From positions 1 through 22,358 of the IMG/VR virus record IMGVR_UViG_3300025736_000228: a stretch of 22,358 nt of DNA; one strand, written 5' to 3'. Shown piece by piece: positions 1 through 22,118 of this stretch. This stretch comes from a virus. Made by a program: the position numbers and the translations under genes. Numbering within the stretch: position 1 is the stretch's first letter; every line of letters starts with the position of its first letter. The notes beneath the pieces are model-generated. The model saw nothing but the letters and a program-made list of their open reading frames with translations, had not been told where the DNA came from and searched no databases.

Positions 1-3000
1 TTTTATTGGTACTATGATCATACCTAATATATCCAACAGAAGTGCTTTGAGGGTCTCCAAAAGTTATGTAAGCTGTTTTATCATTTGGTGTAGCAAAGTG
101 CAAACCTGTATTATCATTTTCTTCTAAAGTTAATATTGCATTTGAATAAGAAGAAGCAGAAGCATCACTCTGCATAATATGTAATTTATTATCAGGACTT
201 GCTGTTCCAATACCTACATTACCTGTTATACTTACACCACATTCTATTGTTTTTAGTTTTTCATTCCCTTGATAATTCAAACAAACATTATCATAATCAA
301 CATATATTTGTGCTGTACCCGTTGTAATAGTAGTTGATGATGCTGCATATAATTGAAGTATTGTCGCAGCATTCCCTAATGAAGTACCACCTCCAATACC
401 TATATAATTTTCAGTTGCAGAACCTGCACCATATACAATCACATTACAATTTACAGCTTCATCATTATTATAATGTCTACCCATTAATCTGATATATTTT
501 GTAGTATCATCTACAATAGTATCAGACACTATAAGTTTAGCACCTGTAGTTTCAAAAATCAAATTTGGATTTGCACAAATACCATCTGCATCAGCATATG
601 TACCAACCGCATTTGCAGTTGAACCACTCCAACCAATTCTACCACTTGTACATCCAGTTACCCACTCAGCATCTGGTATCCATCGTGGATTTGATGAACT
701 TGCATTATAATCATCATTATAAAATATACCTTTAGTACCACTCTGTCCATTATCGTTGTATATCGTACCACCAATACCAACAACAAATCCACTACTACAT
801 GCATGCATTGTTAAACTGCCAGATGATGAACAAATTGCCATTGCACCATCAGATTGAAATAAACCTGTAGATATTCCTGTTATAGTAAATGTTTTAGTCC
901 AATCACCACCAATAGAAGTATTTCCCGTTAAATCACCACCAAGAATAACATTAGTACCACTTGTACTTAAACCATTAATACCCCCTGTGATTGTTCCAGC
1001 ACCACCACCAGTTTCCCATGTAGCATTACCACTTGCATCTGAAGTCAGAACACAGCCATCACTTGCTCCACTAAGCATTTGAAAACAACATGTTACTAAT
1101 GCATCGTCAATACAAACTAATTTATTATCAAATTCACCATAGATTAATGAACAAGTATTACTAATTGCAATATGTAATCTATCTGAACCTGTTTCACTAT
1201 AACCAGCATATCTTCCAAGAAACACATTTGAACTACCACTAATGTTACTACTTCCTGCTCTATACCCAAGAGCAGTGTTAGTACTACCTGTTGTATTACC
1301 ACCAAAAGCACCATCACCAATTCCTACATTATAATCACCACACGTTTTTGCGTCCAATGCACCTGTACCAACGGCAACGTTTGCACCACCACATCTATTA
1401 GCACGCAATGCATTTGCACCAATTGCAACATTTGAACCTCCCACACAATTAAAATAAAGTGTTTGATATCCAAGTGCTGTGTTTGCTGATCCATTATAAT
1501 TAGCATATAATGCTTGAGTACCAACTGCTGTATTTTCTGACCTTGTAACGTTTGAATATAATGCTCTGTACCCAATTGCAACATTATCCTGACCACGAGC
1601 ATAAGGATCACCCGTTCCCCCACTTACAGCAGCTTCAACACCATAAGTTGTACTATGACATAAATAAGGTGTACCACCACTTACAGTTGTTCCACAACCA
1701 GCAACAGTCGAACCATTGGCGAGATTTGACCAACCAATTCCTGATATTCCACCACCACCAGTTTGCCATGTAGCATTTCCACTGGCATCTGAGGTCAGAA
1801 CACAACCAGAACTTGCCCCACTTGTTACTTGAAGTTTACATGTGCTTAACTTATCATCGATTATTACTGTTTTACCAGTGAAATCACCATAAATTAATGA
1901 ACAATCTGCACAGTTACCAATATGTAATTTACTTGAACCAGTTTCACTATATCCAGCACATCTGCCAATAAATACATTATTACTACCTATTGTATTAATC
2001 GCTCCAGCACACTGTCCAATTGCAACATTACCATCACCAGTAGTATTCTCCTGTAATGCTGACGCACCAATAGCAACACCATTTGAACCACCCAAATTTT
2101 CACACAACGCCCATTTACCAATTGCAATGTTTTCAACACCAGTATTTATAGAACTCATTGTCTTCACACCAATTCCAATATTACAACCAGCAAGTAAGTT
2201 TCCACACATTGCCATATATCCAATAGCAATATTTGCTTCACCCCCTGTATTTTTTGCAAGACTTTGTGTACCAATTGCAGTATTACACGAACCACCAGTT
2301 GTAGCTGCCATTGCCATATATCCTATTGAAGTATTTTCGCTACCAGTAGTATGAACTTGCATTGATTGATATCCAATAGCAACATTTACAACACCTGTTG
2401 TATTCTTACACAATGCTTTAATTCCTACACCAACATTACCAAAACCACTAGTATTTGCTTTTATTGCTTGATAACCAATTCCAATATTACAATGACCACT
2501 AACATTTAATCCAAGTGCATCATAACCCATACCAATATTATGATTACCCGTTGTTGTATTCGCTAATACACTAAAACCAATACCAACATTATCACTACCG
2601 TTTGTTATATCTTGACCTGCACAAACACCATAAAAAGTATTACATTCACTTGTACCACTTGCAATTGTTCCACAACCAGCAACAATTGAACCACTAATTA
2701 AATTCGACCAACCAAGACAAACAGCATTTGTTTGTCCAATTACCCATTCAGCATCAGGAATCTGACGTGCAGTGAATGGACTTAAATCAGTGAGATAACT
2801 TGCAACAGCACTAAGACTTGTTGCGCCTGTTACTGCAAGTGTATCATGTAAACAAGTTGCACCTAAGATATCTAATGTAGAATTACCATCAATTGCACCA
2901 CTAACACTTAATGTAGTACCATCAAAAGTTAAACCAGATTGTGCACAAATACCACTTACACTCATATATGTACCAATAGCATTTGCAGTACTACCCGTCC

Positions 3001-3253
3001 ATGCAAGATTACTACTTCCACCACCACTACTAGTTTTTTCAATTAAATCCTCATCTCCAATACCTTCTTTATACCAATATTCAGTACCACCAATATTTAC
3101 TGTAAGTCCTGTATATCGTACCCCACCAACACCACCAGTAATAAGGGTATTAACCTCTGTTTCACCAGTATAGGGCACTTGATTATTTAAGTATCTGCTA
3201 TCCGTTGGTTTCGGAGCACCTGTTTGTATGTTATCACCTAATGCTATTGCCAT
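1..3253 (-). CDS. Type A modular tail-fibre/adhesin protein, 3' end outside the window
   Basis: The frame is open from the ATG at 3253 to the left edge, giving 1,084 codons with no stop, so the C-terminus is missing. Residues 1-75 form the type A start (MAIALGDN, KP.DSRYLN, RYTGLTVN, EYWYKEG) shared with the genes at 6746-10135 and 13382-15121. A module ending in FTARQIPDAEWV (about 159-171) is also found in two neighbours. Residues 221-437 and 556-687 are two arrays of a 17-residue N.AIG..AL..NTTG repeat, resembling the left-handed beta-roll of YadA-type heads. Around 1011-1026 is an NVGIGT.SP..KLHI motif, which in phage fibres often precedes an S74-type self-cleaving chaperone; that part would lie beyond the window. 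At least 35 cysteines are present. The gene follows the 447-residue type B gene after 12 nt, so the two are probably co-transcribed. A role as receptor-binding fibre is inferred. Confidence 0.85.
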   Translation of the reverse strand, partial: MAIALGDNIQTGAPKPTDSRYLNNQVPYTGETEVNTLITGGVGGVRYTGLTVNIGGTEYWYKEGIGDEDLIEKTSSGGGSSNLAWTGSTANAIGTYMSVSGICAQSGLTFDGTTLSVSGAIDGNSTLDILGATCLHDTLAVTGATSLSAVASYLTDLSPFTARQIPDAEWVIGQTNAVCLGWSNLISGSIVAGCGTIASGTSECNTFYGVCAGQDITNGSDNVGIGFSVLANTTTGNHNIGMGYDALGLNVSGHCNIGIGYQAIKANTSGFGNVGVGIKALCKNTTGVVNVAIGYQSMQVHTTGSENTSIGYMAMAATTGGSCNTAIGTQSLAKNTGGEANIAIGYMAMCGNLLAGCNIGIGVKTMSSINTGVENIAIGKWALCENLGGSNGVAIGASALQENTTGDGNVAIGQCAGAINTIGSNNVFIGRCAGYSETGSSKLHIGNCADCSLIYGDFTGKTVIIDDKLSTCKLQVTSGASSGCVLTSDASGNATWQTGGGGISGIGWSNLANGSTVAGCGTTVSGGTPYLCHSTTYGVEAAVSGGTGDPYARGQDNVAIGYRALYSNVTRSENTAVGTQALYANYNGSANTALGYQTLYFNCVGGSNVAIGANALRANRCGGANVAVGTGALDAKTCGDYNVGIGDGAFGGNTTGSTNTALGYRAGSSNISGSSNVFLGRYAGYSETGSDRLHIAISNTCSLIYGEFDNKLVCIDDALVTCCFQMLSGASDGCVLTSDASGNATWETGGGAGTITGGINGLSTSGTNVILGGDLTGNTSIGGDWTKTFTITGISTGLFQSDGAMAICSSSGSLTMHACSSGFVVGIGGTIYNDNGQSGTKGIFYNDDYNASSSNPRWIPDAEWVTGCTSGRIGWSGSTANAVGTYADADGICANPNLIFETTGAKLIVSDTIVDDTTKYIRLMGRHYNNDEAVNCNVIVYGAGSATENYIGIGGGTSLGNAATILQLYAASSTTITTGTAQIYVDYDNVCLNYQGNEKLKTIECGVSITGNVGIGTASPDNKLHIMQSDASASSYSNAILTLEENDNTGLHFATPNDKTAYITFGDPQSTSVGYIRYDHSTNK
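1193..1588 (-). repeat. Second head-type repeat array, 8 units of about 51 nt
   Basis: Residues 556-687 of the overlapping fibre gene contain eight imperfect units of the N.A(I/L/V)G..AL..N pattern, ending in an NVFLGRYAGYSETGS capping unit. The first array of the same protein ends in a nearly identical cap. Confidence 0.85.
1943..2593 (-). repeat. First head-type repeat array, 13 units of about 51 nt
   Basis: Residues 221-437 of the fibre gene contain thirteen imperfect 17-residue units (NVGIGFSVLAN, NIGMGYDALGLN, and so on to NVFIGRCAGYSETGS). The period and the conserved Gly and Asn positions match beta-roll repeats of trimeric adhesin heads. The diverged units suggest an old expansion. 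Confidence 0.85.
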
Positions 3254-3265
3254 TTCTTATCGTTT

Positions 3266-4609
3266 TTAATATGTTCTAAATGCTATTGGTTCACCATCAG
3301 TTGCAGCGAATCCACTCATATATACTTTATAACTCACAGCACTCCAACAACCACCGCTATCGGTTACGTCAAGAATACAACTATTGGGGTATTTATCTGA
3401 AGCACATCCTCTATCAACAAATCCACAATTACCAACCGCCACAAACCATTTTGTTCTATCTGCACATATTTCTGGCATTGCAAACCATGTCCATTCACTA
3501 CTACTACCGAATGTAACACTTATTGATGTTCCGACAGCAAGAACAACGGGAGTTCCAGTATTAACAAGTGCACTATCAATAGTAGGACAAACACCACAGG
3601 TTTCAACACCCCAGAAATACGGATAAACACTACATTTACTTACATTCTTATTGAATGAACTGCTTTGTGTACTACAACCAGTGATTCTAAATGTCCATGT
3701 TTGTGGAGCAGCATTTGTAAGTGTTCCAATTGACAGGTTTTCCGCATAATCATTTGCTAATCCAGTTCCTAACGTAGTACCACTTGTTACATTGAGAATA
3801 CCAATACTATTTGTTGCCACATTATCACAAGTGCTTGTTGCCCAAGTAAAACTTTTTGTTCCATCAACAACAGTACCAACTTCTACTGGAGACGTGATGT
3901 TAACTGCAAATGCACTAAATGCGGGTTCGATATATGGTGCAAGCATTTCCTGTAATAGATATTCCAGAGTTTGTCCAGTTAATGTTGCACCTGCCGTTAT
4001 TCCACCAACAGTACATGTTGCAGGACTGTTATTTGAATACAATCCACCACCAGTTGTACAACCAGTCACCCATTCAGCATCAGGAATCTGACGTGCAGTA
4101 AATGGACTTAAATCACTGAGATAAGTTGCAACAGCACTAAGACTGGTTGCACCAGTTACATCAAGTGTGCTGTGTAATGAAGTTGCACCTAAGATATCTA
4201 ATGTACTCTCGGCATCAATTGCACCAATTACACCAACAGCACCAGTTAAACCAATATCAGTTGCTGTTGCATTAAACGCTGTTAATCCACTCAATGCCAA
4301 TGTATGAGCACAACTAATTGTGGTGTCACCTGTTAATGCACCACCAAGCACAACGTTTACACCACTTGTACTTAAACCATTAGCACCACCAGTAATTGTA
4401 CCAGCACCAGTAGTTTCCCATGTTGCATTCCCACTAGCATCTGAAGTCAGAACTTTACTAACACCAGCGTTATCACAAATACTTAGTGTCGAACCGCTTT
4501 CCAAATCGAAAATCCCGTATATCTGCGTACAACCCGATAAATTCATAACATCACCTGAACACTGTTCAAATTTTGTACAACTAAAATTCGGTTTTGTATC
4601 AATTGCCAT
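3266..4609 (-). CDS. Type B fibre protein, 447 aa
   Basis: The N-terminus MAIDTKPNFSCTKF...LSGCTQI matches the type B start of the genes at 10164-11219 and 15133-16308. Residues 52-66 carry a VLTSDASGNATWET module also seen twice in the downstream type A protein. Residues 76-97 carry the NGL....V.LGG.LTGDT.I element, and about 168-184 the SPFTARQIPDAEWVTGC module. From about residue 198 the protein has the C-terminal domain common to the three B proteins: TVGGI..G..L...LLQEMLAP, then EVG, then YPYFWG, then a stretch rich in W and F, and a final YKVYMSG. About 19 cysteines (over 4%) are unusually many for a virion protein. No enzyme motif is visible. It begins a B-A pair with the downstream 1..3253 gene and follows its own promoter motif and a terminator. 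A structural, fibre-associated role is inferred from composition and company. Confidence 0.85.
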   Translation of the reverse strand: MAIDTKPNFSCTKFEQCSGDVMNLSGCTQIYGIFDLESGSTLSICDNAGVSKVLTSDASGNATWETTGAGTITGGANGLSTSGVNVVLGGALTGDTTISCAHTLALSGLTAFNATATDIGLTGAVGVIGAIDAESTLDILGATSLHSTLDVTGATSLSAVATYLSDLSPFTARQIPDAEWVTGCTTGGGLYSNNSPATCTVGGITAGATLTGQTLEYLLQEMLAPYIEPAFSAFAVNITSPVEVGTVVDGTKSFTWATSTCDNVATNSIGILNVTSGTTLGTGLANDYAENLSIGTLTNAAPQTWTFRITGCSTQSSSFNKNVSKCSVYPYFWGVETCGVCPTIDSALVNTGTPVVLAVGTSISVTFGSSSEWTWFAMPEICADRTKWFVAVGNCGFVDRGCASDKYPNSCILDVTDSGGCWSAVSYKVYMSGFAATDGEPIAFRTY

Positions 4610-4650
4610 ATTATTTCATTTATATTTTTAAATTAATTATAGTAACTATT

Positions 4651-4659
4651 GATAAATAC
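4651..4659 (-). promoter_or_regulatory. GTATTTATC motif, putative phage promoter
   Basis: On the minus strand this reads AAGTATTTATCAATAG, about 42 nt before the start of the 447-residue gene and just downstream of a terminator. The same core recurs at five other places in the window. A 13-nt direct repeat of TTTAAGTAT (4656-4664 and 4669-4677) overlaps it. Promoter function is inferred from the repeated position. Confidence 0.45.
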
Positions 4660-4691
4660 TTAAACCTGATACTTAAATCGGAGAAGAAAAG

Positions 4692-4726
4692 AAAAAAATA
4701 AACCCACTCGTTTAAGTGGGTTTATT
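4692..4726 (-). terminator. Rho-independent terminator after the glycosyltransferase-like gene
   Basis: Minus-strand AATAAACCCACT (4726-4715) and AGTGGGTTTATT (4708-4697) form a perfect 12-bp stem with loop TAAACG, running directly into a T run. It lies 17 nt past the stop of the 305-residue gene and closes the inserted GIY-YIG/glycosyltransferase unit. Confidence 0.9.
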
Positions 4727-4743
4727 AAAAATAAAATAATAAC

Positions 4744-5661
4744 TTATTTTTGTTTATTCACGGCTTCAATAATTTTATTGATATCCAACATATTTACCGT
4801 ATCATAAGGAAAATTTTGGATTTGTCCACTAATATCGTCTTGTAAATATGTGAATTTATTAAGTTCTCTCATGTGTTCGACATTTGGTAAAATATTAATG
4901 TTTTCTTCATAACCAAAAACTTTGGGTGAATTCCCAATCCAAACAACAGTACTTTGCAAATCAAGTGCAGCAGCCACATGTTGAGCAAAACTATCAATAA
5001 ATAATCTCTTGGTACTAAGTGGAAATACTGCATACATTTCCCTAAATGGTAATGTCAATAATTCCGTGCCTTGAAGTGCTGGTTGTTCTGGTGTTCTAAT
5101 ATGCAATATTCGATATGATTTACTGAAATAATTCACGAGTTTTTGTGCAATTTCAATTGGCATATCCCTGTACCACGATTTCTTGCTGTATTGGGCATTT
5201 GGAAACCCGCCATGCGTTTGTAATAACATAATTGGTCTGTTGTCTGGTTTTATCTTATCTCTCGCAATTTCAATCTCTCTAGGGTTCAAATAGATTTTGG
5301 GTTTAACACCATCATAAGGCACATTAAACATTTTACACCAAGTTTCTGTTAAATGTTCTTTTCTCAGTATGTGATTGGTTTCGTTATAAGGGTCTTGTTT
5401 CATTATAATCGTATCGTCCTTAAGATAGTCATCTTTAAAATACTGCATTTGATTAAAAACATAAAAACGAAATATATCGGGATTATAAAATGCGGGTCCG
5501 TCCCACGGGGTTACCCATATCAACTTCCTATCGGGATATTCTTTTTTTATTGCACGAATGACTGCCGTTGCACAAACTTGCTTACCATGCCCCCCAGCAC
5601 TCTCAAAAATTATATACTTATCATTGTCCCTAATTTTGTTGTCGATTATCATAAATTTCAT
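4744..5661 (-). CDS. Glycosyltransferase-like protein, GT9 (heptosyltransferase)-like, 305 aa
   Basis: The protein looks like a two-domain GT-B transferase. Residues 16-53 (IIFESAGGHGKQVCATAVIRAIKKEYPD...IWVTPW) match the N-terminal glycine loop and first helix of ADP-heptose:LPS heptosyltransferase-like proteins. Residues 219-251 (RLFIDSFAQHVAAAL...VVWIGNSPKVFGY) match the C-terminal donor-site region, where such enzymes have DSG..HLAAA. The Asp usual after the glycine loop in GT9 enzymes is replaced by Lys27 (GHGK), so a heptosyl transfer reaction should not be assumed. There is no signal peptide or membrane segment, so it is probably cytoplasmic. It starts 7 nt after the GIY-YIG stop and ends at a strong terminator, inside the fibre locus. 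It may sugar-modify fibres or a host surface component, but nothing in the sequence decides this. Confidence 0.75.
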   Translation of the reverse strand: MKFMIIDNKIRDNDKYIIFESAGGHGKQVCATAVIRAIKKEYPDRKLIWVTPWDGPAFYNPDIFRFYVFNQMQYFKDDYLKDDTIIMKQDPYNETNHILRKEHLTETWCKMFNVPYDGVKPKIYLNPREIEIARDKIKPDNRPIMLLQTHGGFPNAQYSKKSWYRDMPIEIAQKLVNYFSKSYRILHIRTPEQPALQGTELLTLPFREMYAVFPLSTKRLFIDSFAQHVAAALDLQSTVVWIGNSPKVFGYEENINILPNVEHMRELNKFTYLQDDISGQIQNFPYDTVNMLDINKIIEAVNKQK

Positions 5662-5668
5662 TATTAAT

Positions 5669-6628
5669 TTAATTATTATTTTTATTTATTGTGTTTTTAT
5701 ATTTAAAAATAAAACCTTTACATGTTTTAGTAATGCCTTTTAAATTTGTTACAATTAAACCACCACTTATATTTAATGTTCTCTTTGCTTCACCAATAGA
5801 TATAAACTCTGCAATCATATTATTATTTAAATCATATTGTATTATTGGTTTTAGCATTTTTGAATATTTACCAACGTGCTTAATTATATGTGTAGGTTTT
5901 TTATCTTTATAATACCATAAATAACCACCAGCTTGTTCAGTTTTCTTTTTTAAACAACAATTTATTGTTGGTTGACCAATATTAGTTAAATTTGAAGCCT
6001 CTTTTTGACTTTTATATTCTTTAATAAACTTACCATCAAACGAATATTGAATTATGGGTGTACAATGTTTTACCAAATCTTTAAAAACAAACAAATCTGC
6101 TTTTTCTTTAGATAAAAACAAATATGTAGCACGATAAGATTTTTTCCCTCTTTGGTCAATTACATGCGATATTAATCCTGCATTCACATTATATGTATTT
6201 GCAACTTCATTGACTGAATCATATCTTTTTAAAAATTTACCATCTTCAGAATATTGATAAACAGGTTTTAAATAAGTACACCCACCATCACCACCATCGG
6301 TTAAATTAGTTAGTTTAAACCCATTGTCTCTATATTTTTTTATATGGTAGATTTCCAATCTTTGATGTTCAAACATATTTGAATCAGAATTAAACAACTT
6401 ATCGCACTCGTCAATTATTTTCATTTCTGGTTTCAGACCTAATCCAAGAATTTTATTGATAATGTTTTTTTTGTAAGTATTTTTCTCTCTCTTTTTACCA
6501 TTAATATTTAAATGTTGAGCAAATCTTCTTTTTAAATTTTCAGCATATCCAACATAAAATATTTTATTATTTCTTGGGTCAACTAATCCATAAATATAAA
6601 TCTTATTATTAATTTTTTTATATGCCAA
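5669..6628 (-). CDS. GIY-YIG homing endonuclease with three NUMOD1-like repeats, 319 aa
   Basis: Residues 11-40 contain the GIY-YIG core (YIYGLVDPRNNKIFYVGYAENLKRRFAQHL in two parts: YIYG at 11-14 and YVG at 25-27), with R34/R35 in the expected catalytic position and E87 or E92 as candidate metal ligand. LTNLTDGGDGG (107-117) closes the domain. Three C-terminal repeats follow at about 122-165, 191-235 and 260-305, each starting with (V/I)(Y/I)QY....(G/N)..(I/L) and a short helix-turn-helix, as in NUMOD1 DNA-binding modules. The start is TTG at 6628 because no ATG precedes the catalytic core. A 16-nt perfect palindrome (6627-6642) overlaps that start. The gene has a putative promoter motif 25 nt upstream and is followed closely by the glycosyltransferase-like gene. 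It is a free-standing mobile element, since no intron or intein features surround it. Confidence 0.88.
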   Translation of the reverse strand: MAYKKINNKIYIYGLVDPRNNKIFYVGYAENLKRRFAQHLNINGKKREKNTYKKNIINKILGLGLKPEMKIIDECDKLFNSDSNMFEHQRLEIYHIKKYRDNGFKLTNLTDGGDGGCTYLKPVYQYSEDGKFLKRYDSVNEVANTYNVNAGLISHVIDQRGKKSYRATYLFLSKEKADLFVFKDLVKHCTPIIQYSFDGKFIKEYKSQKEASNLTNIGQPTINCCLKKKTEQAGGYLWYYKDKKPTHIIKHVGKYSKMLKPIIQYDLNNNMIAEFISIGEAKRTLNISGGLIVTNLKGITKTCKGFIFKYKNTINKNNN

Positions 6629-6652
6629 ATTTTATAAAATTTTATACTTTTT

Positions 6653-6661
6653 TATAAATAC
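6653..6661 (-). promoter_or_regulatory. GTATTTATA motif, putative phage promoter
   Basis: Minus-strand AACGTATTTATAAAAAAG lies about 25 nt before the TTG start of the GIY-YIG gene, after a terminator and a small GGTTTT/AAAACC hairpin (6665-6681). It shares its core with five other intergenic sites. Confidence 0.45.
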
Positions 6662-6693
6662 GTTGGTTTTCCGCAAAAACCTAAATACTAACA

Positions 6694-6728
6694 AAAAAAA
6701 ATGGAAAACTTTCGAATCCCATTTTTTT
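6694..6728 (-). terminator. Terminator after the 1129-residue fibre gene
   Basis: Minus-strand AAAAAAATGGGA and TTTCCATTTTTTT form a stem around a TTCGAAAG-type loop, followed by a run of nine T. It begins 18 nt after the stop of the fibre gene. A T run also exists on the other side, so it could work in both directions. Confidence 0.75.
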
Positions 6729-6745
6729 ATCTATTTTAACTCATA

Positions 6746-9700
6746 TTAATTAATATATGCTAAACTAAACCATTCATTTGTTGCACCATATACAAGTTCA
6801 AGAGCACCATAATCTGTATTAATTAAAGCACATTGTGAACCATCGATTGTTAATCCACTACTAGCATCAATAGTAATTGGAGCAGCCAATGCATTACCAC
6901 AAGCATCTTTAATCTTAAATGCCTGTCCATCTTGTGGACTTGCAGGTAATGTAAATGTTGTAGCACCACTTATTAATTGTACATATGTACTTGCTGTTGT
7001 ACCAGTAGCATTTGCACTAACAATAGTTTTGTTATAAATATTATTGTCTTCACCAAGTTCAGTACCTGCAACTGTTCTTACTTCACCACCAGAATTTCTA
7101 ACGAGAACAGCATCACTCGTAGTACCAGCAGTTGGAGTTTGACTAAGTGTTAATTTAGCGTCAAGTGTTACTGTTTTAGCAGCAAAATCACCAGATATTA
7201 ATGAACATGATTGTGAATTTGCTATATGTAATTTATTCGAACCAGTTTCACTATATCCTGCTTGATATCCTATTACAACATTAGTGCTACCTGTTACATT
7301 ACTATAAAATGCACATCTACCTTGTACTACGTTATTACAACCAGTTGTATTTTCATATCCTGCACGATATCCCATTGCAATATTATCACAACCAGTTGTA
7401 TTATGTAAAAGTGCATTCATTCCTTGTGCAATATTATAATCACCGCTTGTATTTTCACAAAGTGCTGCATAACCTTGTGCAAGATTACGACAACCATCTA
7501 TATTATAAGCAAGTGCATAACTACCAATTGCTAAATTATCACGACCTTCGGTATTTGCACAAAGTGCATAAAAACCTTGTGCTACATTATATCTACCACT
7601 TGTATTACTACAAAGTGCATAAATTCCTTGTGCAATATTACCTTCACCAGTTGTATTTGCACTTAATGCCCCACAACCAATACCAATATTATCTGTACCA
7701 CTACCATTTGAACCTGCACCACCAAGATAAATTGAACTAATTTCACTTGTACTTGTTCTCAACATCGTTACACCGCTTATTTGATAACCACAAGTTGTGT
7801 TTAATTCAGCACCATCACAAATACTAAGTGTATATGCACCACTAATTGCAGTATCACCAGTTAAAGCACCACCAAGTACAGCATTTGTTCCGACTTTTGT
7901 TAAACCATTATTAACGGTTTGTACACCAGCAGTGCTTGTGCAACCAGTCACCCATGCAGCATCAGGAATTTGACGTGCAGTAAATGGACTTAAATCACTG
8001 AGATAACTTGCAACAGCACTAAGACTTGTTACGCCTGTTACATCAAGTGTGCTATGAAGTGTTGTAGCACCAAGAATATCAAGTGTGCTCTCGGCATCAA
8101 TTGCACCCGAAGCATTAAGACTCGTAATTGTTGTTGCACCAGTTACATCAAGTGTGCTATGAAGTGTTGTAGCACCAAGAATATCAAGTGTACTGCTACC
8201 ATCAATTGCACCAATTACACCAACAGCACCAGTTAAACCAATATCAGTTGCTGTTGCATTAAACGCTGTTAATGAACTAAGTGCCAATGTATGAGCACCA
8301 CTAATTGTAGTATCACCAGTTAAAGCACCACCAAGAACAACGTTTGAACCAACTTTTGTTAAACCATTATTTGCACTATTAATTGGAGTGCCAAGTGCTG
8401 ATATAAGGTCAACACAAGCAACAACAAGACAATCAGTAGAATTATATCCAACTGGAATAGCATCAGTAACACCACAAGAAGCAGCATTTACATTAAGAAT
8501 ACCACTTGCTAAACTTAATGCATTTCCAGCAATCGATGAATCAACAACTAAACCACTTGATGTATTTAATCCTGAATTTGAACCCAGATTAACACAAATA
8601 GTTTTTGTTTCACCAACAGTTGATATTGCAATACCCGCACCCGCATTAACATCCAGCAATTGTGAAAATTTAGTAAATACCAATGGTGTTGTTCCAACAG
8701 TAATTGGGTCTTTAGTTATAAGTATCCAAGATGAATTGATTTGAGTATCACCACTTAATACAGGAATTAACGCACCTTCAGTTACTTCACCAACAGTAGT
8801 TCCATCAAAATCATTTGAACGTGTCCATGAAGCACCAGAAACAACGTCATAAATACCATTTGTCTCACCACTTGTTTGATTTTTTACAAGAACTCTATCA
8901 CCCTCTACAAGACTAACACTATCAATAGTCTGAAGATCATTTAACGTAATATTAACGGTTGTTGCTACCAAAACCGCTGATTTGGGGTCTAAACCACTTG
9001 CAACAGTATCAACATATAATTTACTTACTAAAGAATTATTAACAAAAGTATCCATATAATCAGCACCATAACATAAACCTTTTAAATTACTTGTGATAAT
9101 TGTACCACCAGAAAGTGACATAGTTAAATTATTATCAGTTTCAACTATTATATTTTCTTCCGTATATATTTGTAAGGTATTCAAACAACTTGCATTTGTA
9201 CCTAAACAAAGGTCAAAATCACCAGTAATTGCTGTATTTGCAACTAATACACCACCAAGACAAACATCTTGACCAGTAGTTCCAATACCATTTGTTGCAC
9301 CAGTTAAACCACCAAGTGATGACAATGTTGTTTTAGAAATTGCACCATCACTTGAATCATATGTTAATATATCACCAACATATGTTGCAGGTGTACTTTT
9401 TAATCTTACCTCACCACATAAATTAATTGCAGTACTACCAGTTAAATTAATATTTGTATGACTAAATGATAGGTCATAAGTGCCTGTTAAACTTGTATTA
9501 CCTGTTAAAGCACCACCAAGTACAGCATTTGTTCCGACTTTTGTTAAACCATTATTAACGGTTTGTATACCAGCAGTGCTTGTGCAACCAGTTACCCATT
9601 CAGCATCAGGAATTTGACGTGCAGTAAATGGACTTTTATTACTATCATAAGAAGCGACTTCTTTTACAGATATTGCACTACCATCAAGTGTTAATGCACC

Positions 9701-10135
9701 TATTGGACAAATTTCGGTTGTACCAGTTGCTAATATAGCAACACTTGCAGCATTTATTTGAAATGCCCCTAATTTACTTGCAGCAGTACCGAGATTCAAT
9801 GCGTTTGTTGCACCACAAATATTTGTGATTTCATTCAGTGGAGTTGTGCCACCAAATTTAACATCTTGTCCAACTTTAGTTAAACCATTTGTTGCACCAG
9901 TTATACCTTCAGTTACAATTGAAGATTCTTTTTGAACTAAATCAACATCATCAACACCATTTTTCCACCAATATTCCACACCGAGAACATTTACTGTTAA
10001 ACCAGTATATCTATATGTTGGAATACCAGCATTTGCTGCTCCCACACTTGCCCAAGGTGTTGATATATTTAAATATCTATCATCAAAAGGTTTTATTCCT
10101 TGAAGACTATAATTGTCGTTAATTAAAATTGCCAT
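6746..10135 (-). CDS. Type A modular fibre/adhesin protein, 1129 aa
   Basis: This is the longest complete gene. Residues 1-75 form the type A start (MAILINDN, KPFDDRYLN, YTGLTVNVLGVEYWWKNG). Residues 365-491 form a fibre module seen in many phage tail proteins, with SLVSKLYVD, then VATTVNITL...IDSVSLVEGDRVLVKNQT, then NGIYDV and FTKFSQ. The NGL....V.LGG element recurs near residues 83, 195, 282, 589 and 744, and SPFTARQIPDA near 168 and 716. Residues 641-700 include a tandem 35-residue duplication (STLDILGATTLHSTLDVTG). Residues 816-962 are head-type beta-roll repeats capped by YQAGYSETGS. The last 90 residues (GQAFKIKDACGNAL...INTDYGALELVY) form a C-terminal domain shared with the genes at 11294-13369 and 13382-15121. 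It follows its B partner by 28 nt and ends at a terminator. A receptor-binding fibre role is inferred. Confidence 0.87.
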   Translation of the reverse strand: MAILINDNYSLQGIKPFDDRYLNISTPWASVGAANAGIPTYRYTGLTVNVLGVEYWWKNGVDDVDLVQKESSIVTEGITGATNGLTKVGQDVKFGGTTPLNEITNICGATNALNLGTAASKLGAFQINAASVAILATGTTEICPIGALTLDGSAISVKEVASYDSNKSPFTARQIPDAEWVTGCTSTAGIQTVNNGLTKVGTNAVLGGALTGNTSLTGTYDLSFSHTNINLTGSTAINLCGEVRLKSTPATYVGDILTYDSSDGAISKTTLSSLGGLTGATNGIGTTGQDVCLGGVLVANTAITGDFDLCLGTNASCLNTLQIYTEENIIVETDNNLTMSLSGGTIITSNLKGLCYGADYMDTFVNNSLVSKLYVDTVASGLDPKSAVLVATTVNITLNDLQTIDSVSLVEGDRVLVKNQTSGETNGIYDVVSGASWTRSNDFDGTTVGEVTEGALIPVLSGDTQINSSWILITKDPITVGTTPLVFTKFSQLLDVNAGAGIAISTVGETKTICVNLGSNSGLNTSSGLVVDSSIAGNALSLASGILNVNAASCGVTDAIPVGYNSTDCLVVACVDLISALGTPINSANNGLTKVGSNVVLGGALTGDTTISGAHTLALSSLTAFNATATDIGLTGAVGVIGAIDGSSTLDILGATTLHSTLDVTGATTITSLNASGAIDAESTLDILGATTLHSTLDVTGVTSLSAVASYLSDLSPFTARQIPDAAWVTGCTSTAGVQTVNNGLTKVGTNAVLGGALTGDTAISGAYTLSICDGAELNTTCGYQISGVTMLRTSTSEISSIYLGGAGSNGSGTDNIGIGCGALSANTTGEGNIAQGIYALCSNTSGRYNVAQGFYALCANTEGRDNLAIGSYALAYNIDGCRNLAQGYAALCENTSGDYNIAQGMNALLHNTTGCDNIAMGYRAGYENTTGCNNVVQGRCAFYSNVTGSTNVVIGYQAGYSETGSNKLHIANSQSCSLISGDFAAKTVTLDAKLTLSQTPTAGTTSDAVLVRNSGGEVRTVAGTELGEDNNIYNKTIVSANATGTTASTYVQLISGATTFTLPASPQDGQAFKIKDACGNALAAPITIDASSGLTIDGSQCALINTDYGALELVYGATNEWFSLAYIN
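7250..7690 (-). repeat. Head-type repeat array, about 9 units of 51 nt
   Basis: Residues 816-962 of the overlapping gene repeat N(I/L/V)AQG..ALC.NT(T/S)G. Unlike the arrays at 1193-2593, several units have Gln for the usual Ile in AIG, and Cys recurs at a fixed position before the Asn. Confidence 0.85.
8037..8191 (-). repeat. Tandem 105-nt duplication inside the 1129-residue fibre gene
   Basis: Positions 8037-8086 and 8142-8191 are identical over 50 nt at a 105-nt offset, which is 35 codons, so the frame is kept. The near-perfect identity points to a recent duplication. Confidence 0.9.
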
Positions 10136-10163
10136 ATTATTCTATTTTTATTTTCTGTCATTA

Positions 10164-11219
10164 TTAACTATATAAACACATTGGTACACCTGATGCCGTA
10201 CTTGTTATTCCACATGTGACATAAACTTTAAAATCACAACCAGTCCAACAACCCTGTCCTGATGTAACTGCAACAGTACAAGATGCTGCCCATAATTGAC
10301 CAGTTCCACCAATATCACCAGCATTTGCTGCACAAACCCACCATTTTGTTTTTAGTGTGCATCCATCAGGTGCTGCAAACCACAAATATTCTGTTGTGGC
10401 ATTAAATGTAATTGGAGTACTTGTACTAACACTACCAACGGTTTTTGTTCCACCAGTAATTATATCACTTGTTATTGTATCATTGGCATTTGTACCCCAA
10501 TACCAAGGCAAAATACCTGAAATTGAACTACTTGCAGGACTTGTACAACCTGAAGCCAGTGCTATTGCACATTCAGTGCCTTTACTACCAAGCACAGGAC
10601 TACCTTCATCATATCTTGTACAAACACCCCAAGATTGACTTCCTGAAACCACATCATAACTTGCATTAACTGCACTTGCAACCAAGTCACTACATGCTTG
10701 AAAACCTGCTGGCATTCCTGTACCTGTAAAACAATATGCATTTGGTAAACCACTTCGTTTATCACTAAGACTATCATATTGTGGGTCAATACAACCTCGA
10801 TTGAATGTACCTGTAGCCGTCTGTGATACATTACAACCAATTTCTTTAATACCACTACATGTTAATCCGATACCAAGACTTGGTGCTGTTATATCACCAT
10901 ATAATTCAGGAACTAAAATTTCCTCAAGTAAACAGTTGCTACTTTTTCCAGTTAAAACAGTACCAACAACTATTCCACCAACCTCTACGGCTGCTGGCGA
11001 TCCTAAATCATATATTGTGCTTGCAGTAAGACCAGTAACCAAATTATCATCAACATATTTTTTATCAATAACTTGAGTATCTCCAGTAAATGTTGGGTGC
11101 GTTTGATATTTTAAATCACCAACTGTTGCAATAGTGGTATTGCCAGATAATGATAATGTATTACCAGTTGCTTGATATGTTTTGGCATCGCTTAGATTAA
11201 TTTTTGTATTAAAAGCCAT
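10164..11219 (-). CDS. Type B fibre protein, 351 aa
   Basis: The start MAFNTKINLSDAKTYQ...LSLSGNTTI is the clearest example of the type B N-terminus. Residues about 47-62 hold the QVIDKKYVDDNLVTGL element, a variant of the SLV.K.YVD linker common in these genes. The C-terminal domain runs from VEVGGIVVGTVL...LLEEILVPELY through LPWYWGT and EYLWFAAPDG...KTKWWV to DFKVYVT, in register with the other two B proteins. There are about 16 cysteines (over 4%). There is no signal peptide or catalytic motif. The gene has its own upstream promoter motif at 11253-11261, directly after the 691-residue gene, and is followed after 28 nt by its type A partner. A fibre-tip or fibre-adaptor role is inferred. 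Confidence 0.85.
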   Translation of the reverse strand: MAFNTKINLSDAKTYQATGNTLSLSGNTTIATVGDLKYQTHPTFTGDTQVIDKKYVDDNLVTGLTASTIYDLGSPAAVEVGGIVVGTVLTGKSSNCLLEEILVPELYGDITAPSLGIGLTCSGIKEIGCNVSQTATGTFNRGCIDPQYDSLSDKRSGLPNAYCFTGTGMPAGFQACSDLVASAVNASYDVVSGSQSWGVCTRYDEGSPVLGSKGTECAIALASGCTSPASSSISGILPWYWGTNANDTITSDIITGGTKTVGSVSTSTPITFNATTEYLWFAAPDGCTLKTKWWVCAANAGDIGGTGQLWAASCTVAVTSGQGCWTGCDFKVYVTCGITSTASGVPMCLYS

Positions 11220-11252
11220 AATTTCGTATTTTATTTATTTCAATTATCTATT

Positions 11253-11261
11253 AATAAATAG
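11253..11261 (-). promoter_or_regulatory. CTATTTATT motif, weaker variant of the putative phage promoter
   Basis: Minus-strand AAACTATTTATTAATAG lies about 32 nt before the 351-residue gene in the only gap (74 nt) of the fibre run from 16308 to 10136. It differs from the other five sites at the first base. Confidence 0.35.
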
Positions 11262-11293
11262 TTTGAAATCAAGAAAAATACCTCAAAACATTA

Positions 11294-13369
11294 TTAATTT
11301 GTAAATGCTACTGCACTCCAAAAATATCCATTATATATGAATGTTGTTGACCCAAAATTGGTATTAATTAACGAACAGGTACATGAAACATCATTAATTC
11401 GATTACCATTACCATTAATTGTAATCGGATTACTTAATGCACCACCACAGATATCAGCAACACTAACTTTTTGACCACAACTTGGACTAATCATTAGATA
11501 TATGCACGATGCACCACTTACACCAATAAAACTATTGGCAGTTGTTGCTGTATATTGTGTAATTATATTACAAACATTAAGAATATTTGGTGAAACCTGT
11601 TTAATTTTTTTATCATTGGAATCCCAAACAAGTATTGCATCTAATGTTGTACCACCTGTTGGTGCTAATTGTAATGTTACAATACCACTTAAATTAATGG
11701 TTGTACCTGTTAAATTAATGGTCGTACCAGTTAAATTAATGGTCGTACCACTTAAATTTAAATTGGTTTGATTTATATTTAAAGTCTGTGCACCATTTAT
11801 TGTTGTTTCCCCCGTTAATGTACCACCAAGTTTAAGTTGTCGTCCCAATTTGGTTAATCCATTTGTAGCACCAGTAATTGTTAGATTTAATTCATTTCTT
11901 GTTGTACCAGTATAACCACTAAATATAACTATATCAAGTTTGGTGTCTGTTACACCACTAAGATAAACAATATCATTTTCTATGTCCTGTAATTGAGTTT
12001 CTGTTGTACCAGTATAACCATTAAATGTTGAAACATTTAATTTTGAATCTAATGCTGTTGATAGTGTTCCACCACTAATATCAACATCAAATTGACATGT
12101 TGAACCATTCCAAGACAATGAGTTACCAGCAAGACTCAGACCATCTACTGAAATTGTATGTTCACCAGTGGTACAAACTGTAATTGTTATTCCAGTACCT
12201 GCAACCACATCTGTAACTTGACCAAATTCTGTAAATATTAATGTATCACCAGAAGTTATTATATCAGGTGTAGTTAATACCCAAGTAGTACTTTTATTTG
12301 TTCCCGATATTACAAAGAAATACGAACCCTGAACAACTTCACCAGTAATTGGAGCAAAATCAAAATCTGATGTACGACCCCAAGTACCTGTAGTTGCACT
12401 ATATATACCATTAAAAGCACCATTTGTTTGATCTTTAACTAATATCCTGTTACCACTACCTATTATACTACTAACAGAAATCCCATCAATTGTTCCAGTA
12501 TCACCACTAAGTATTGTATTACCACTTGCTGGTGTTGTTGCTGCCTGAACTGCTTGTTTTGGATGTAAACCACTAGCAATCGTATCTACATATGTTTTAT
12601 CAACAAGTGAACGTGCGGTATAAAAAGTACTATAATTACCATCATATTCAATACCCTTTTGTTCCGCACCCGCTCTACAGTCATAAATTTTAAATCCACT
12701 ATTACATTTATTGATTTGAAAACCAACAGAATTACTGAAATCATCAAAATAACTTGATGATGTGTTACATTGTGATTTTAAATATATACCACCATTACAG
12801 TGATTATCAATAACAATTGGACTATTTTCATTATTAATACAAAATGAAATTGAAGAACCACTCTGACCCCAAATACAAGTATTATTAATCAACATTCCAC
12901 CTAAACATGCATCATCCCCACTAACACCCAAACCATTAACAGCACCCTGTAAACCAGTAACACTTAATGCTGGCATTTTATTTACTTTAGTTGTACCACT
13001 ATCCCATGTTAAAAAATAATAATCACCTACTTCAGTTACTGGTATTTGTGAAATACATATATTTGGCACAGTGACCCCTGATGTCACAACATCATATATG
13101 AAACCCGTAGCACCTGTAATTCCAGAACTACCTCTATATATAAGTTGTCCAACAGAACCAATATTACGAATAGCAGAAGTTAAACCACTTACATATTCAG
13201 CATCAACAATAGAACGAGCAATATAGTCACCACTTTTATCATTTAAATATTGAAAAGTACTACTATTTGCAAGAATCGTATTTCCTGATAGTGTTAATGT
13301 TCCACCAGTTTTTTGGTTGAACCCACTATCAAATAATGTTTGATTAGTTTTATAACTATATATTGGCAT
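11294..13369 (-). CDS. Hybrid B'/A fibre protein, 691 aa
   Basis: The N-terminus (MPIYSYKTNQTLFDSGFNQ...LTLSGNTIL) resembles type B, but the usual B C-terminal domain is absent. Instead the protein carries two YIARSIVDAEYV / FYTARSLVDKTYVD linkers, the fibre module with GNRILVKDQTNGAFNGIYS and LIFTEFGQV (about 275-405), NGL....LGG elements, three exact heptad-like GTTINLT repeats, and the C-terminal domain of type A proteins (ADICGGALSNPITIN...INTNFGST). It therefore looks like a B-type start joined to an A-type body. It follows the 579-residue gene after 12 nt in the same run. Cysteine-rich stretches occur around 180-240. A fibre role is inferred; no enzyme motif is seen. Confidence 0.85.
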   Translation of the reverse strand: MPIYSYKTNQTLFDSGFNQKTGGTLTLSGNTILANSSTFQYLNDKSGDYIARSIVDAEYVSGLTSAIRNIGSVGQLIYRGSSGITGATGFIYDVVTSGVTVPNICISQIPVTEVGDYYFLTWDSGTTKVNKMPALSVTGLQGAVNGLGVSGDDACLGGMLINNTCIWGQSGSSISFCINNENSPIVIDNHCNGGIYLKSQCNTSSSYFDDFSNSVGFQINKCNSGFKIYDCRAGAEQKGIEYDGNYSTFYTARSLVDKTYVDTIASGLHPKQAVQAATTPASGNTILSGDTGTIDGISVSSIIGSGNRILVKDQTNGAFNGIYSATTGTWGRTSDFDFAPITGEVVQGSYFFVISGTNKSTTWVLTTPDIITSGDTLIFTEFGQVTDVVAGTGITITVCTTGEHTISVDGLSLAGNSLSWNGSTCQFDVDISGGTLSTALDSKLNVSTFNGYTGTTETQLQDIENDIVYLSGVTDTKLDIVIFSGYTGTTRNELNLTITGATNGLTKLGRQLKLGGTLTGETTINGAQTLNINQTNLNLSGTTINLTGTTINLTGTTINLSGIVTLQLAPTGGTTLDAILVWDSNDKKIKQVSPNILNVCNIITQYTATTANSFIGVSGASCIYLMISPSCGQKVSVADICGGALSNPITINGNGNRINDVSCTCSLINTNFGSTTFIYNGYFWSAVAFTN
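11691..11753 (-). repeat. Three tandem 21-nt repeats coding GTTINL(T/S)
   Basis: Units at 11691-11711, 11712-11732 and 11733-11753 differ by only one or two bases and keep the frame. They lengthen a beta-strand-like shaft in the 691-residue fibre protein. Confidence 0.95.
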
Positions 13370-13381
13370 ACTATATTAATA

Positions 13382-15121
13382 TTAATGAGGCGTAACAGAA
13401 AATCCAATTACATCCCATTTGGCATTTTCACTATTATATATTGCACTTAATGAACCAAATGCTGTATCAATACATGAAAGAAAACTACCACCAAAGAATG
13501 AACCAGCAATTTGAACATAACAACTTGGTGTTGCATTACCACAAATATCTGAAACAATAATAACAGTACCATTTTTTGCAACACCATTAATATTAGGTTG
13601 TAAATTAACAACACTTCCACCCGACACACCAATATAATAATCAATTTCAGTTATATTATATGTTGGTATTGTTGGATTACAAACACTTTTTACCAATGCC
13701 CCACCAGTAACTCCACTTGTTATAACATATCCTGCATATGGTAAAACCCATCCAGTACAATTTGATGTAGCAATTAACATAGATTTACTTAGATAATTAG
13801 GAGTTGTTGGTTCTGTTGGAGTTAATGATCCTGCTATGGTATCACTAAGAAAATAAGTAGAATTTGGAATATATGATGCCGTAAGTCCTGTAACATAACC
13901 TGCTTGGGTTAATTCAAAACAATCAGCATTATAATATTTACTAACTATTCCCAGAACCTCACCATCATATAATCCATTTGCAATTGGTTTATTATAACAA
14001 CCACTAATAACAGTAGCACCACTCCATCCAACAACTTCACTATTCACAAATCCATGTCCTGTTTGACATATCATTTTAAAAATTCTTTCACCACCTCCAG
14101 CAGTTAAAGATTTGGTATCAACATATCTTTTCGTTACAAGAGACTCAGAAACAAATGATGAACTATAATCAGTAACATATGTAATACCACTTGGAACTAC
14201 ACGACTATCCGTTATGATAGTATCACCAGTTATTGTACCACCAAGTTTCACATCTGTCCCTACTTTTGTTAAACCATTTGATGCAGTAAGTAATTGAGTT
14301 CCAGTCGAACCCGAAAATCTAACATAGTTATCATCGTTTGTAATTTTGAGAATCTCTGGAGTATCACTTATTGGTGTTCTAAAATTCAGGTCTTGATCTG
14401 CTTTATAACTATATACTGGATTACCTATTGTAACTGTAGAACCAGTTGTTAGACTACCAGCACCTGTAATTGAAGTACCAAGATTTGTTTGCCATCCTGT
14501 GAGCCATGTAATTTCCTGATATGGTGTTCCAGAATAACTATATGGATTTGTTGAATTACCGACATCCGCTACAACATCACTCCAACTTAGAATCCATCCA
14601 CTTGTTCCAACATCATAAATCCAAGATTTAGTTCTTAATGAATTAACATATGCTCTACGAAGCGGACCGTTATGTGTTGGTGAACCGATTCTAATAATAC
14701 CATCAGCATCGGCATAATACCAATTATATTCTGAATAGTAATAACCATCAAATACGGTTGGTGTTATTGGAAAACCATTTAAATCAAGTCTTTGTATGCC
14801 CGTTTGTCCACTAAAATAACCCAGATTTGTTGCACCAGTGACAAAATCACCAACAAGTTGTTCCGATGCAAATTTTTTCTCTTCAAGATTATCATAAGCA
14901 ACACCAGTTTTAAACCAGTATTCAACATTTGTTTCACCTGTATATGATAATAAAACAGTTAAACCCAGATGTCTTTCACTAATAGGAATTGCTGTGGTTA
15001 CACCACTTTTAGCATCAACTAATGTAGTTCCACTATATGCAGTATTACCAGTACTCAGATATTTTGATTCGCTCGGTTTACCTGCGTTTATCTTAATGTT
15101 ATCATTTAATATTATTGCCAT
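13382..15121 (-). CDS. Type A fibre protein, 579 aa
   Basis: The N-terminus (MAIILNDNIKINAGKPSESKYLS..., HLGLTVLLSYTGETNVEYWFKTG) is type A. Its middle differs from the other A proteins: residues about 120-235 are rich in Tyr and Trp (FDGYYYSEYNWYYADADGII) and contain no beta-roll repeats. An NGLTKVGTDVKLGG element and an ESLVTKRYVDTKSL linker follow, then a region with GHGFVNSEVVGW. The last 90 residues (GTVIIVSDICGNA...IDTAFGSLSAIYN) form the shared A-type C-terminal domain. It lies 11 nt after its B partner (391 aa) and 12 nt before the 691-residue gene, so the three are probably one transcript. Stop is TAA. A fibre role is inferred. Confidence 0.85.
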   Translation of the reverse strand: MAIILNDNIKINAGKPSESKYLSTGNTAYSGTTLVDAKSGVTTAIPISERHLGLTVLLSYTGETNVEYWFKTGVAYDNLEEKKFASEQLVGDFVTGATNLGYFSGQTGIQRLDLNGFPITPTVFDGYYYSEYNWYYADADGIIRIGSPTHNGPLRRAYVNSLRTKSWIYDVGTSGWILSWSDVVADVGNSTNPYSYSGTPYQEITWLTGWQTNLGTSITGAGSLTTGSTVTIGNPVYSYKADQDLNFRTPISDTPEILKITNDDNYVRFSGSTGTQLLTASNGLTKVGTDVKLGGTITGDTIITDSRVVPSGITYVTDYSSSFVSESLVTKRYVDTKSLTAGGGERIFKMICQTGHGFVNSEVVGWSGATVISGCYNKPIANGLYDGEVLGIVSKYYNADCFELTQAGYVTGLTASYIPNSTYFLSDTIAGSLTPTEPTTPNYLSKSMLIATSNCTGWVLPYAGYVITSGVTGGALVKSVCNPTIPTYNITEIDYYIGVSGGSVVNLQPNINGVAKNGTVIIVSDICGNATPSCYVQIAGSFFGGSFLSCIDTAFGSLSAIYNSENAKWDVIGFSVTPH

Positions 15122-15132
15122 ATCTATATTTT

Positions 15133-16308
15133 TTAACTATTTCTTAATTCCATATTTGATAATGCTTCCGATTGATAATTGCTAACATATACTTGGTAAG
15201 ACTGACCAGTCCAAGAACCTGTTCCAACAGATGTAACACCAGTAACTGTCTCAGGTACTGGAAATAAATTACCACCACCACTTACAGCACCACCAATTAT
15301 ACCACTATTTAATGCATCAACATACCAACATGTTTTAGATGTACTTCCCGTTGGTGTTGCAAACCACAGATAATCATCACTGGTACTACCGAATATGACT
15401 TCTATTGTTCCTGTACTCGTACCAACGACCTTAGTACCACCACTTGTACCACCACAAGTATTACCAGTCATTTCATGTTTAATACAAGCAACAGACGGTC
15501 TATTTACACCTGCTGATGCACCACTACTTGACAATGTTCCCCAATACCAAGGATAAACACCAGTTATTACTCTATAACAACTAGTCGTAGCACTTGCTAC
15601 TAACGGTGCAGAATATGTATTACCACTACTATCATATGGTTGTGTTCCACCACTATAACAAACACATGAATATATATAATTCGAATCAAGACCAATAGTA
15701 TTTGAACCAAACCAATAGGTATTGGTTGGAAGAGAAGATAGACAAGTATAATCAATACTAAAAGCAGAATATGTGTAACCTGACGCACCACAACTTCTAC
15801 AATCACTTAATGCTGAATATTGTGGATTTATCGTACCCGGATTAAACACCGTTATTCCACTAATATTCGAAATATAACCAACTTCATATAATGTTGTTGA
15901 TGGACTGATTGTAAATGAAGAAATACTTGGATTAGTTAATGTTGGATATAATGTTGGAACTAAAATATCGTGTAATATATCAACAACCTGTTCATTATAT
16001 AGATTTTCTCCAGCAACTAAACCACCAACAGTTGTTGTTGCTGATTCATTGTATGGATAAATACCTGTAGCACCAGTTGCACTTGATTCTTTTAATTTAA
16101 TAACAGGAATTACTCCACCATCATCATATGTTAAAACAAAATTATTTGTTGCACCCGTTGCTTGAATAGGTATGTTAACACTACTATCACCAACAAGGGT
16201 TAAACCAGTTGTTGTTGCTATTTGGGTTTGACCCGATAACGTCAGTTCACTACCTTTTAACTGTTTAAATTGAGTATCGTCTAAATTTGGTCTTGCGAAA
16301 AATGCCAT
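15133..16308 (-). CDS. Type B fibre protein, 391 aa, first gene of the fibre run
   Basis: The start MAFFARPNLDDTQFKQLKG...LTLSGQTQI is type B. From about residue 90 the shared domain runs TVGGLVAGENL...ILHDILVPTLYP, LYEVGYISN, NPQYSALSD, VYPWYWGT, FGSTSDDYLWFATP, KTCWYV and a final YQVYVS. It is more Tyr/Ser-rich and less Cys-rich (9 Cys) than the other two B proteins. The leader before the ATG is long: a putative promoter motif lies about 93 nt upstream, with a stable hairpin between. There is no Shine-Dalgarno sequence, and the start is the first ATG after the A-rich leader. It leads a run of B-A genes. A structural fibre role is inferred from paralogy within the window. Confidence 0.85.
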   Translation of the reverse strand: MAFFARPNLDDTQFKQLKGSELTLSGQTQIATTTGLTLVGDSSVNIPIQATGATNNFVLTYDDGGVIPVIKLKESSATGATGIYPYNESATTTVGGLVAGENLYNEQVVDILHDILVPTLYPTLTNPSISSFTISPSTTLYEVGYISNISGITVFNPGTINPQYSALSDCRSCGASGYTYSAFSIDYTCLSSLPTNTYWFGSNTIGLDSNYIYSCVCYSGGTQPYDSSGNTYSAPLVASATTSCYRVITGVYPWYWGTLSSSGASAGVNRPSVACIKHEMTGNTCGGTSGGTKVVGTSTGTIEVIFGSTSDDYLWFATPTGSTSKTCWYVDALNSGIIGGAVSGGGNLFPVPETVTGVTSVGTGSWTGQSYQVYVSNYQSEALSNMELRNS

Positions 16309-17577: not shown

Positions 17578-17583
17578 TCAATG

Positions 17584-17657
17584 TAGCGGGAGAGGGACTC
17601 GAACCCCCGACCTCTTGGTTATGAGCCAAGCGAGATACCAACTTCTACCACCCCGCA
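17584..17657 (-). tRNA. tRNA-Met (anticodon CAT), initiator-like
   Basis: The 74-nt sequence folds as a cloverleaf: acceptor TGCGGGG/TCCCGCT, anticodon stem CTTGG/CCAAG with loop CTCATAA, T arm GGGGG-TTCGAGT-CCCTC, and discriminator A. CCA is not encoded. The first pair of the acceptor is a T-T mismatch, and the 5' part (TGCGGGGTGG) and GGTC variable loop resemble bacterial initiator tRNA rather than elongator Met. The D stem needs one bulged T (G[T]AGA with TCTC). Only two of the three G-C pairs expected next to the anticodon loop of an initiator are present. It begins two bases after the HNH stop and so is probably cut from the same transcript. tRNA-Ile2 (CAT, lysidine) remains possible. 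Confidence 0.88.
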
Positions 17658-22046: not shown

Positions 22047-22078
22047 TTTATTATTTTTTGATTGTTAGTAACTATTAG

Positions 22079-22109
22079 CAAATATAGCGAGAATCCCTCA
22101 AAGATGAAA
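22079..22109 (-). promoter_or_regulatory. Bacteroidota-type promoter before the 213-residue gene
   Basis: Minus-strand TATATTTG (22086-22079) matches the -7 box. TTTC lies 19 nt upstream (22109-22106), one base from the TTTG consensus. The site falls in a true gap, about 33 nt before the ATG at 22046. Confidence 0.6.
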
Positions 22110-22118
22110 GGATTTTTA

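Follow-up and report, generated by a model that had tools for sequence, protein, structure and literature searches.

The fibre genes of this virus contig raise the question of what exactly is repeated in them, whole pairs of genes or a smaller element that the pairs have in common. The analysed window was the whole contig of 22,358 bases, with the genes on the minus strand, among them a cluster of seven fibre genes (B1, A1, H, B2, A2, B3 and A3, in this order). The seven open reading frames of a preliminary description were recovered at their positions on this strand, together with the three B–A pairs, separated by 11 nt (B1/A1), 28 nt (B2/A2) and 12 nt (B3/A3). The B proteins proved to be alike (B1/B2, E = 3e-31; B2/B3, E = 1e-18; B1/B3, E = 1e-7), with a common N-terminus (B-N), whose 40-residue profile matched B1, B2, B3 and H at E-values of 1e-11 to 1e-20, and a common C-terminal domain (C), covered in B1, B2 and B3 by one profile. 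The N-termini of the A proteins (A-N) were also homologous (A2/A3 over the N-terminal 220 aa, E = 4e-19; A1/A3 over the first 82 aa, E = 2e-6; A1/A2, E = 9e-6), and the EYW(F/W/Y)K(T/N/E)G motif was found in A1, A2 and A3.

All features given below lie on the minus strand. B1 (15133..16308) has an anchor-type N-terminus at 16189-16308 and its C domain at 15136-16083, and A1 (13382..15121) consists of the putative plug A-N (~14867-15121), a shaft and a terminal domain T (~13385-13714). In the second pair, the anchor-type N-terminus of B2 (10164..11219) occupies 11100-11219 and its C domain 10167-11036, and A2 (6746..10135) comprises A-N (~9911-10135), a shaft with 17-residue repeats and T (~6749-7078). 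B3 (3266..4609) combines an anchor-type N-terminus (4490-4609) with an extra shaft and a C domain (3269-4063), and A3 (2..3253), truncated at the contig end, has A-N (~3023-3253) and a shaft with 17-residue repeats. These 51-nt repeats (NTTGxxNIAIGxxAL), located at 1273-2599 in A3 and at 7358-7711 in A2, matched PHROG 6002, 23837 and 4636 (virion protein, tail spike), and the PHROG matches of the window fibre proteins were to fibre and virion-protein shaft modules. The gene between the first two pairs, H (691 aa, 11294..13369), had been described as a B–A hybrid. It does have a B-type N-terminus (~13241-13369) and an A2-like body and ends in the same terminal domain T as A1 and A2, but it contains neither C nor A-N and is followed by B2, with no A gene next; because both C and A-N are missing, H is read as a one-piece fibre and not as a fused pair. 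Direct repeats of 21 nt (INLTGTT) at 11683-11787 suggest a place where the shaft of H might change in length.

Two further genes sit within the fibre cluster, between A2 and B3, namely, a homing-endonuclease-like GIY-YIG/NUMOD1 gene (5669-6628) and a gene encoding a 305-aa protein (4744-5661). The latter protein was very weakly heptosyltransferase-like (NCBIfam, E = 0.04) and had a clear orthologue (303 aa) in the related locus L001, and genes of ~300 aa occurred within the fibre cluster in many relatives; it is perhaps a glycosyltransferase acting on the fibres. Upstream of the fibre genes, homing-endonuclease-like genes of the GIY-YIG (16885-17547) and HNH (17660-18094) types were found on either side of a tRNA-Met gene (17583-17657), as well as a DnaB-like helicase gene (18278-21316) into which an intein carrying a LAGLIDADG endonuclease is inserted (~residues 220-595); no intein is present in the 640-aa orthologue of L001. 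At the contig edge, the reading frame in which an exonuclease-like gene (22040-22357) terminates differs from that of its orthologue in L001; either a sequencing error or a real change may be behind this. The relatives L025, L010, L077, L086 and L093 have record lengths of 299-349 kb, and the recombinase of a relative was nearest to that of Flavobacterium phage immuto, which makes a host from the Bacteroidota likely, as far as can be judged from sequence.

The presence of three homologous pairs in one cluster had been taken as amplification of a fixed pair. In the strict form of this reading, the whole B–A cassette was amplified recently in this phage lineage, and common stretches of 77-93% DNA identity in the middle modules of A2, A3 and B3 are in its favour; the pairs, however, are only ~30-40% identical to one another, have closer slot counterparts in other phages, and are conserved in the joint only, not over their whole length. 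The identity among the window copies was 33-44% for A-N and 29-34% for C, whereas B1 and A1 were 60-77% identical to their counterparts in other phages. Since the window copies diverge more from each other than B1 and A1 do from these counterparts, the three pairs are old and slot-conserved. Thus, the three homologous pairs stand, but as ancient, slot-specific copies, and their recent amplification is highly improbable.

Profiles of B-N (40 aa), C (~290 aa) and A-N (~80 aa) were built and applied to 150 loci collected by searching for A-N and C separately, the pattern searches for C being based on narrow alignments because an initial one was too diverse. As the loci of this set are related (20 C clusters at 50% identity), counts in it do not represent independent events. 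C was located at the extreme C-terminus in 124 of 124 distinct cases of the set and never internally, and A-N began at residue 1 in 109 of 113 matches. A-N directly followed C in 114 of the 121 distinct C ends having downstream DNA; the remaining seven preceded two other kinds of gene, three (subtype delta) a divergent start piece and four another gene. Conversely, C lay just upstream of 114 of the 127 distinct A-N domains, with a median gap of 12 nt, and the phages of the 13 A-N genes without an adjacent C mostly carry a C/A-N pair elsewhere. In four near-identical loci (L126, L127, L131 and L138), C is followed after 1 nt by a gene starting with MPFILNPYWT, and the A-N gene lies ~800 nt or more beyond; this gene is possibly another partner of C. 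It should also be mentioned that an alignment of 460 residues (E = 8e-113) linked an A-N-starting gene of L005 (8315-10951) to PHROG 15433, named 'tail sheath', so that either this gene is a strange fusion or PHROG 15433 is wrongly named.

The same kinds of B-N gene exist with and without C, and this difference coincides with what follows them. Among the 76 distinct B-N genes, an A-N gene came next in 56 of the 57 with C and in 0 of the 19 without it (Fisher test, 5e-17), and outside the first slot in 18 of 18 and 0 of 16, respectively. In the sole exception, L107, which has B-N and C with no A-N gene next, both C and plug are altered and form the same type pair as in L031. As a control, the genes ending in T (53 distinct) were followed by A-N in 0 of 53 cases and by a new B-N gene in 35 of 53. 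In some relatives, the pairs are extended to chains: the order B1+C, A+C, A was found in L032, L035, L036, L015, L018 and L046, and the order B1+C, A+C, A+C, A in L010. Consequently, of the proposed 'fixed pair, perhaps adaptor plus fibre', the pairing of B with A and their almost invariant order were borne out, but the fixed part is the joint, that is, C and the first ~80 residues of the next gene, the remainder of both genes being freely exchanged, and chains such as that of L010 are not predicted by a simple adaptor-plus-fibre pair. By sequence, then, the repeated unit is a joint across the stop codon, made of the C domain of B and the start of A, and not the whole pair.

In the window, joint 1 (14867..16083) comprises the C domain of B1, the stop codon, 11 nt and the A-N of A1; joint 2 (9911..11036) the C domain of B2, the stop codon, 28 nt and the A-N of A2; and joint 3 (3023..4063) the C domain of B3, the stop codon, 12 nt and the A-N of A3. 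Joint 2 is of the same subtype as the B2/A2 joint of L062 and the A+C to A joint of L032. Joint 3 combines a C end of the type 'SGFAATD' with the plug 'ITGGVGGVRYTG', a combination recurring in L006 (H to A) and L010 (A to A).

The gene grammar also bears on a reading in which B and A are lateral partners, B being a short fibre with C as its receptor-binding tip and A a separate long fibre attached to the virion through A-N, with sideways contact only. It draws on the position of C as the last domain of B, on the fact that many phage tips are beta-sandwich domains and on the strictly N-terminal position of both A-N and B-N. Chains of A+C to A would, however, require a tip and then yet another anchor, C almost never occurs in a gene without a plug gene next, and C tracks the first 80 residues of its neighbour, although receptor-binding tips usually diversify fastest and independently. 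Lateral partnership is therefore considered very unlikely.

C and A-N were co-inherited. The correlation between C identity and A-N identity was 0.61 (109 nonredundant pairs), and between different slots rho was 0.51, compared with a mean of 0.02 and a maximum of 0.24 in slot-wise permutations (Mantel-type p values from 199 permutations of related loci). In contrast, A-N was hardly correlated with the 100 residues that come after it in the same protein (0.10), as was C with the residues preceding it (0.12) and with the N-terminus of its own protein (-0.01). The flanks being uncorrelated, the homology block starts at C, crosses the stop and start codons and ends after A-N. In the 15 proteins carrying both A-N and C, the correlation of A-N was 0.56 with the upstream C versus 0.26 with the C of the same protein, and that of the latter C with the A-N of the next gene was 0.61. 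Insulation, that is, joints differing more within one phage than between phages, was at the background level.

The main rival explanation of this co-inheritance is linkage without binding, in which C and A-N serve as homology arms for recombination of fibre genes and travel together by adjacency. Part of the correlation may indeed be due to linkage, given that the two domains are adjacent in the DNA (median gap 12 nt), and sequence homology is confined approximately to the C/A-N block. Linkage, however, should couple A-N at least as strongly to the remainder of its own gene, where 0.10 was observed against 0.51 with C; it also leaves unexplained the rarity of C without a following plug, the absence of a plug after genes without C, the result of the direction test in proteins carrying both domains, and the paired replacement by other types described below. 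On these grounds, linkage alone was judged unlikely, though less so than lateral partnership.

Paired type switches were found in different phages, a C of another type going with another type of start of the next gene. Such type pairs have the starts 'MAIKRPDIYE' (L001 and L029), 'LASPIVRGSSGDTY' (L031 and L107) and 'MSRxxGTF' (L037 and L055, with L097 similar), and C subtype C4 was combined with 'LELPFGxKV' plugs twice in L015 and also in L018 and L046, which covers three slot contexts. For the C domain of B1, AlphaFold2 with an input of 103 aligned sequences predicted a compact two-lobed domain (pLDDT mostly >95), composed of an Ig-like lobe spanning 122-252 and another beta lobe, and for residues 1-100 of A1, containing A-N, a helix and a small sheet were predicted with moderate confidence (pLDDT 75). 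In type delta ('MSRxxGTF'), C retains lobe 1, with residues 73-255 matched by the profile, and its lobe 2 is replaced, which points to lobe 2 as the part of C that sets specificity.

The best explanation of these data, and a probable one, is that the B–A pair represents consecutive segments of one fibre joined by C as a socket and A-N as a plug, the two forming a matched set. B would be the proximal segment, attached to the virion by the 40-residue B-N and ending in C, whose second lobe would carry the specificity, and the first ~80 residues of A would dock into it. A segment ending in C could accept another segment, giving fibres with one joint or chains of up to four segments, and a segment ending in another domain, such as T in A1, A2 and H, would close the fibre. 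The window phage would then have three two-segment fibres and one one-piece fibre (H), with the same kind of anchor throughout, and several receptor-binding arms per phage, as suggested in the preliminary description, are plausible. Since socket and plug would evolve as a matched set, shafts and tips could be swapped by recombination between joints. Physical binding of C to A-N, the proximal-to-distal order, the oligomeric state, receptor binding and binding of the anchor to the virion are what we infer for such a fibre.

No Pfam entry matched the B or A proteins, the PHROG matches to C and A-N were few and weak, none of them convincing, and C had no match by sequence in the PDB and only generic Ig-like matches by fold (Z <8), while A-N gave nothing usable in the PDB by sequence or fold. 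In a viral library, C had many fold matches (E-values down to 1e-12) among uncharacterised proteins from Tenacibaculum and crAss-like phages. Compared at the nucleotide level, the window had no match among GenBank phages, and none was returned by tblastn searches with B2 and the A-N of A3; a scan of a genome collection for C matched no bacterial genome.

Among cultured phages, Tenacibaculum phage pT24 contains BPT24_124 (C, E = 4e-19) followed with a 1-base overlap by BPT24_123 (A-N, E = 7e-8). Tenacibaculum phage PTm5 has the same gene order downstream of its tail sheath and baseplate genes, with 2 nt between ORF-029 (C, E = 2e-10 by sequence, and also recognised by fold) and the next gene, ORF-030 (A-N, E = 1e-13). 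A-N (~E = 1e-18) also forms the start of gp19 in Bacteroides phage crAss002, 1 nt behind gp18, in which no significant C match was found. A counterexample is the crAss-like phage cr11_1, which has an internal C-like domain and in whose genome no A-N was found. Neither A-N nor C was detected in Flavobacterium phage immuto, which has the replication gene order in common, in a scan run for C without a positive control. With pT24, PTm1 and PTm5, cultured Tenacibaculum phages are available in which the joint can be put to the test. Fibres decide the bacterial host, and the fibre genes of jumbo phages and Bacteroidota-type phages are mostly unannotated. If the socket-and-plug explanation is true, sequence alone could reveal how many segments a fibre has, in which order they stand and which of them are compatible, in a large group of phages, probably infecting Bacteroidota; a sequence-recognisable joint would assign parts to the same fibre and predict compatible parts, and C and A-N would be two new domain families marking fibre genes now listed as hypothetical.

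The long tail fibre of phage T4 (gp34-gp35-gp36-gp37) likewise consists of several proteins arranged end to end and encoded by neighbouring genes. The fibre proposed here would resemble it as a multi-protein, end-to-end structure, with a gene order and joint grammar that fit consecutive segments from proximal to distal, but the T4 joints are protein-specific and not reused, whereas here one type of joint would serve across slots, phages and segment numbers; no match to gp34, gp35, gp36 or gp37 was returned from PHROG, Pfam or the PDB. In modular polyketide synthases, a C-terminal docking element pairs specifically with the N-terminal element of the next protein, and gene order equals chain order. 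This is an analogy only, the proteins and their function being unrelated.

Docking of fibre on fibre is already known from T4gp10-like branched systems (PMC6872550, PMC9700779) and from crAss001 gp22 (PMC10172136). The long fibres of T4 are a further example. In PhicrAss001, gp22 is a trimeric tail fibre that docks to the hub by its first 26 residues and carries further fibre proteins (PMC10172136); gp22-gp26 were considered as relatives and rejected, and differ from the present system in that their sequences match neither C nor A-N. Anchor-branched systems include gp66/gp63.1 of phage G7C and the Klebsiella KP32, Menlow, PhiK64-1 and phiKp24 groups (PMC6872550, PMC9700779). In these systems, a virion-anchored first fibre protein carries a docking domain, further fibre proteins bind to it through a conserved stretch at their N-terminus, phages exchange tips and jumbo phages have several fibres each (PMC6872550, PMC9700779). 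The arrangement proposed here would be similar in these respects. Their dock, however, is T4gp10-like, is situated N-terminally in the first protein and produces branches, whereas the candidate dock here is two-lobed, lies at the protein end and would produce linear chains; an N-terminal docking site was not found, C ending its protein in each of the 124 distinct cases. No T4 gp10-like match to B or A was obtained in PHROG, Pfam or PDB sequence searches, and gp10 was absent among the fold matches listed, which were to the Ig-like lobe. The passages of PMC6872550 and PMC9700779 contain no description of matched dock/plug co-evolution with several type switches, and the joint was undescribed in the literature searched, with subscription journals mostly outside its reach. 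On balance, we favour the view that the domain pair is a general and specific end-to-end fibre joint with at least four socket/plug types and a strict gene grammar. As far as the searches reach, the domain pair itself, its placement at protein ends with putative linear chains as the result, its use in several slots and phage groups, and the evidence for matched types appear to be new relative to these systems.
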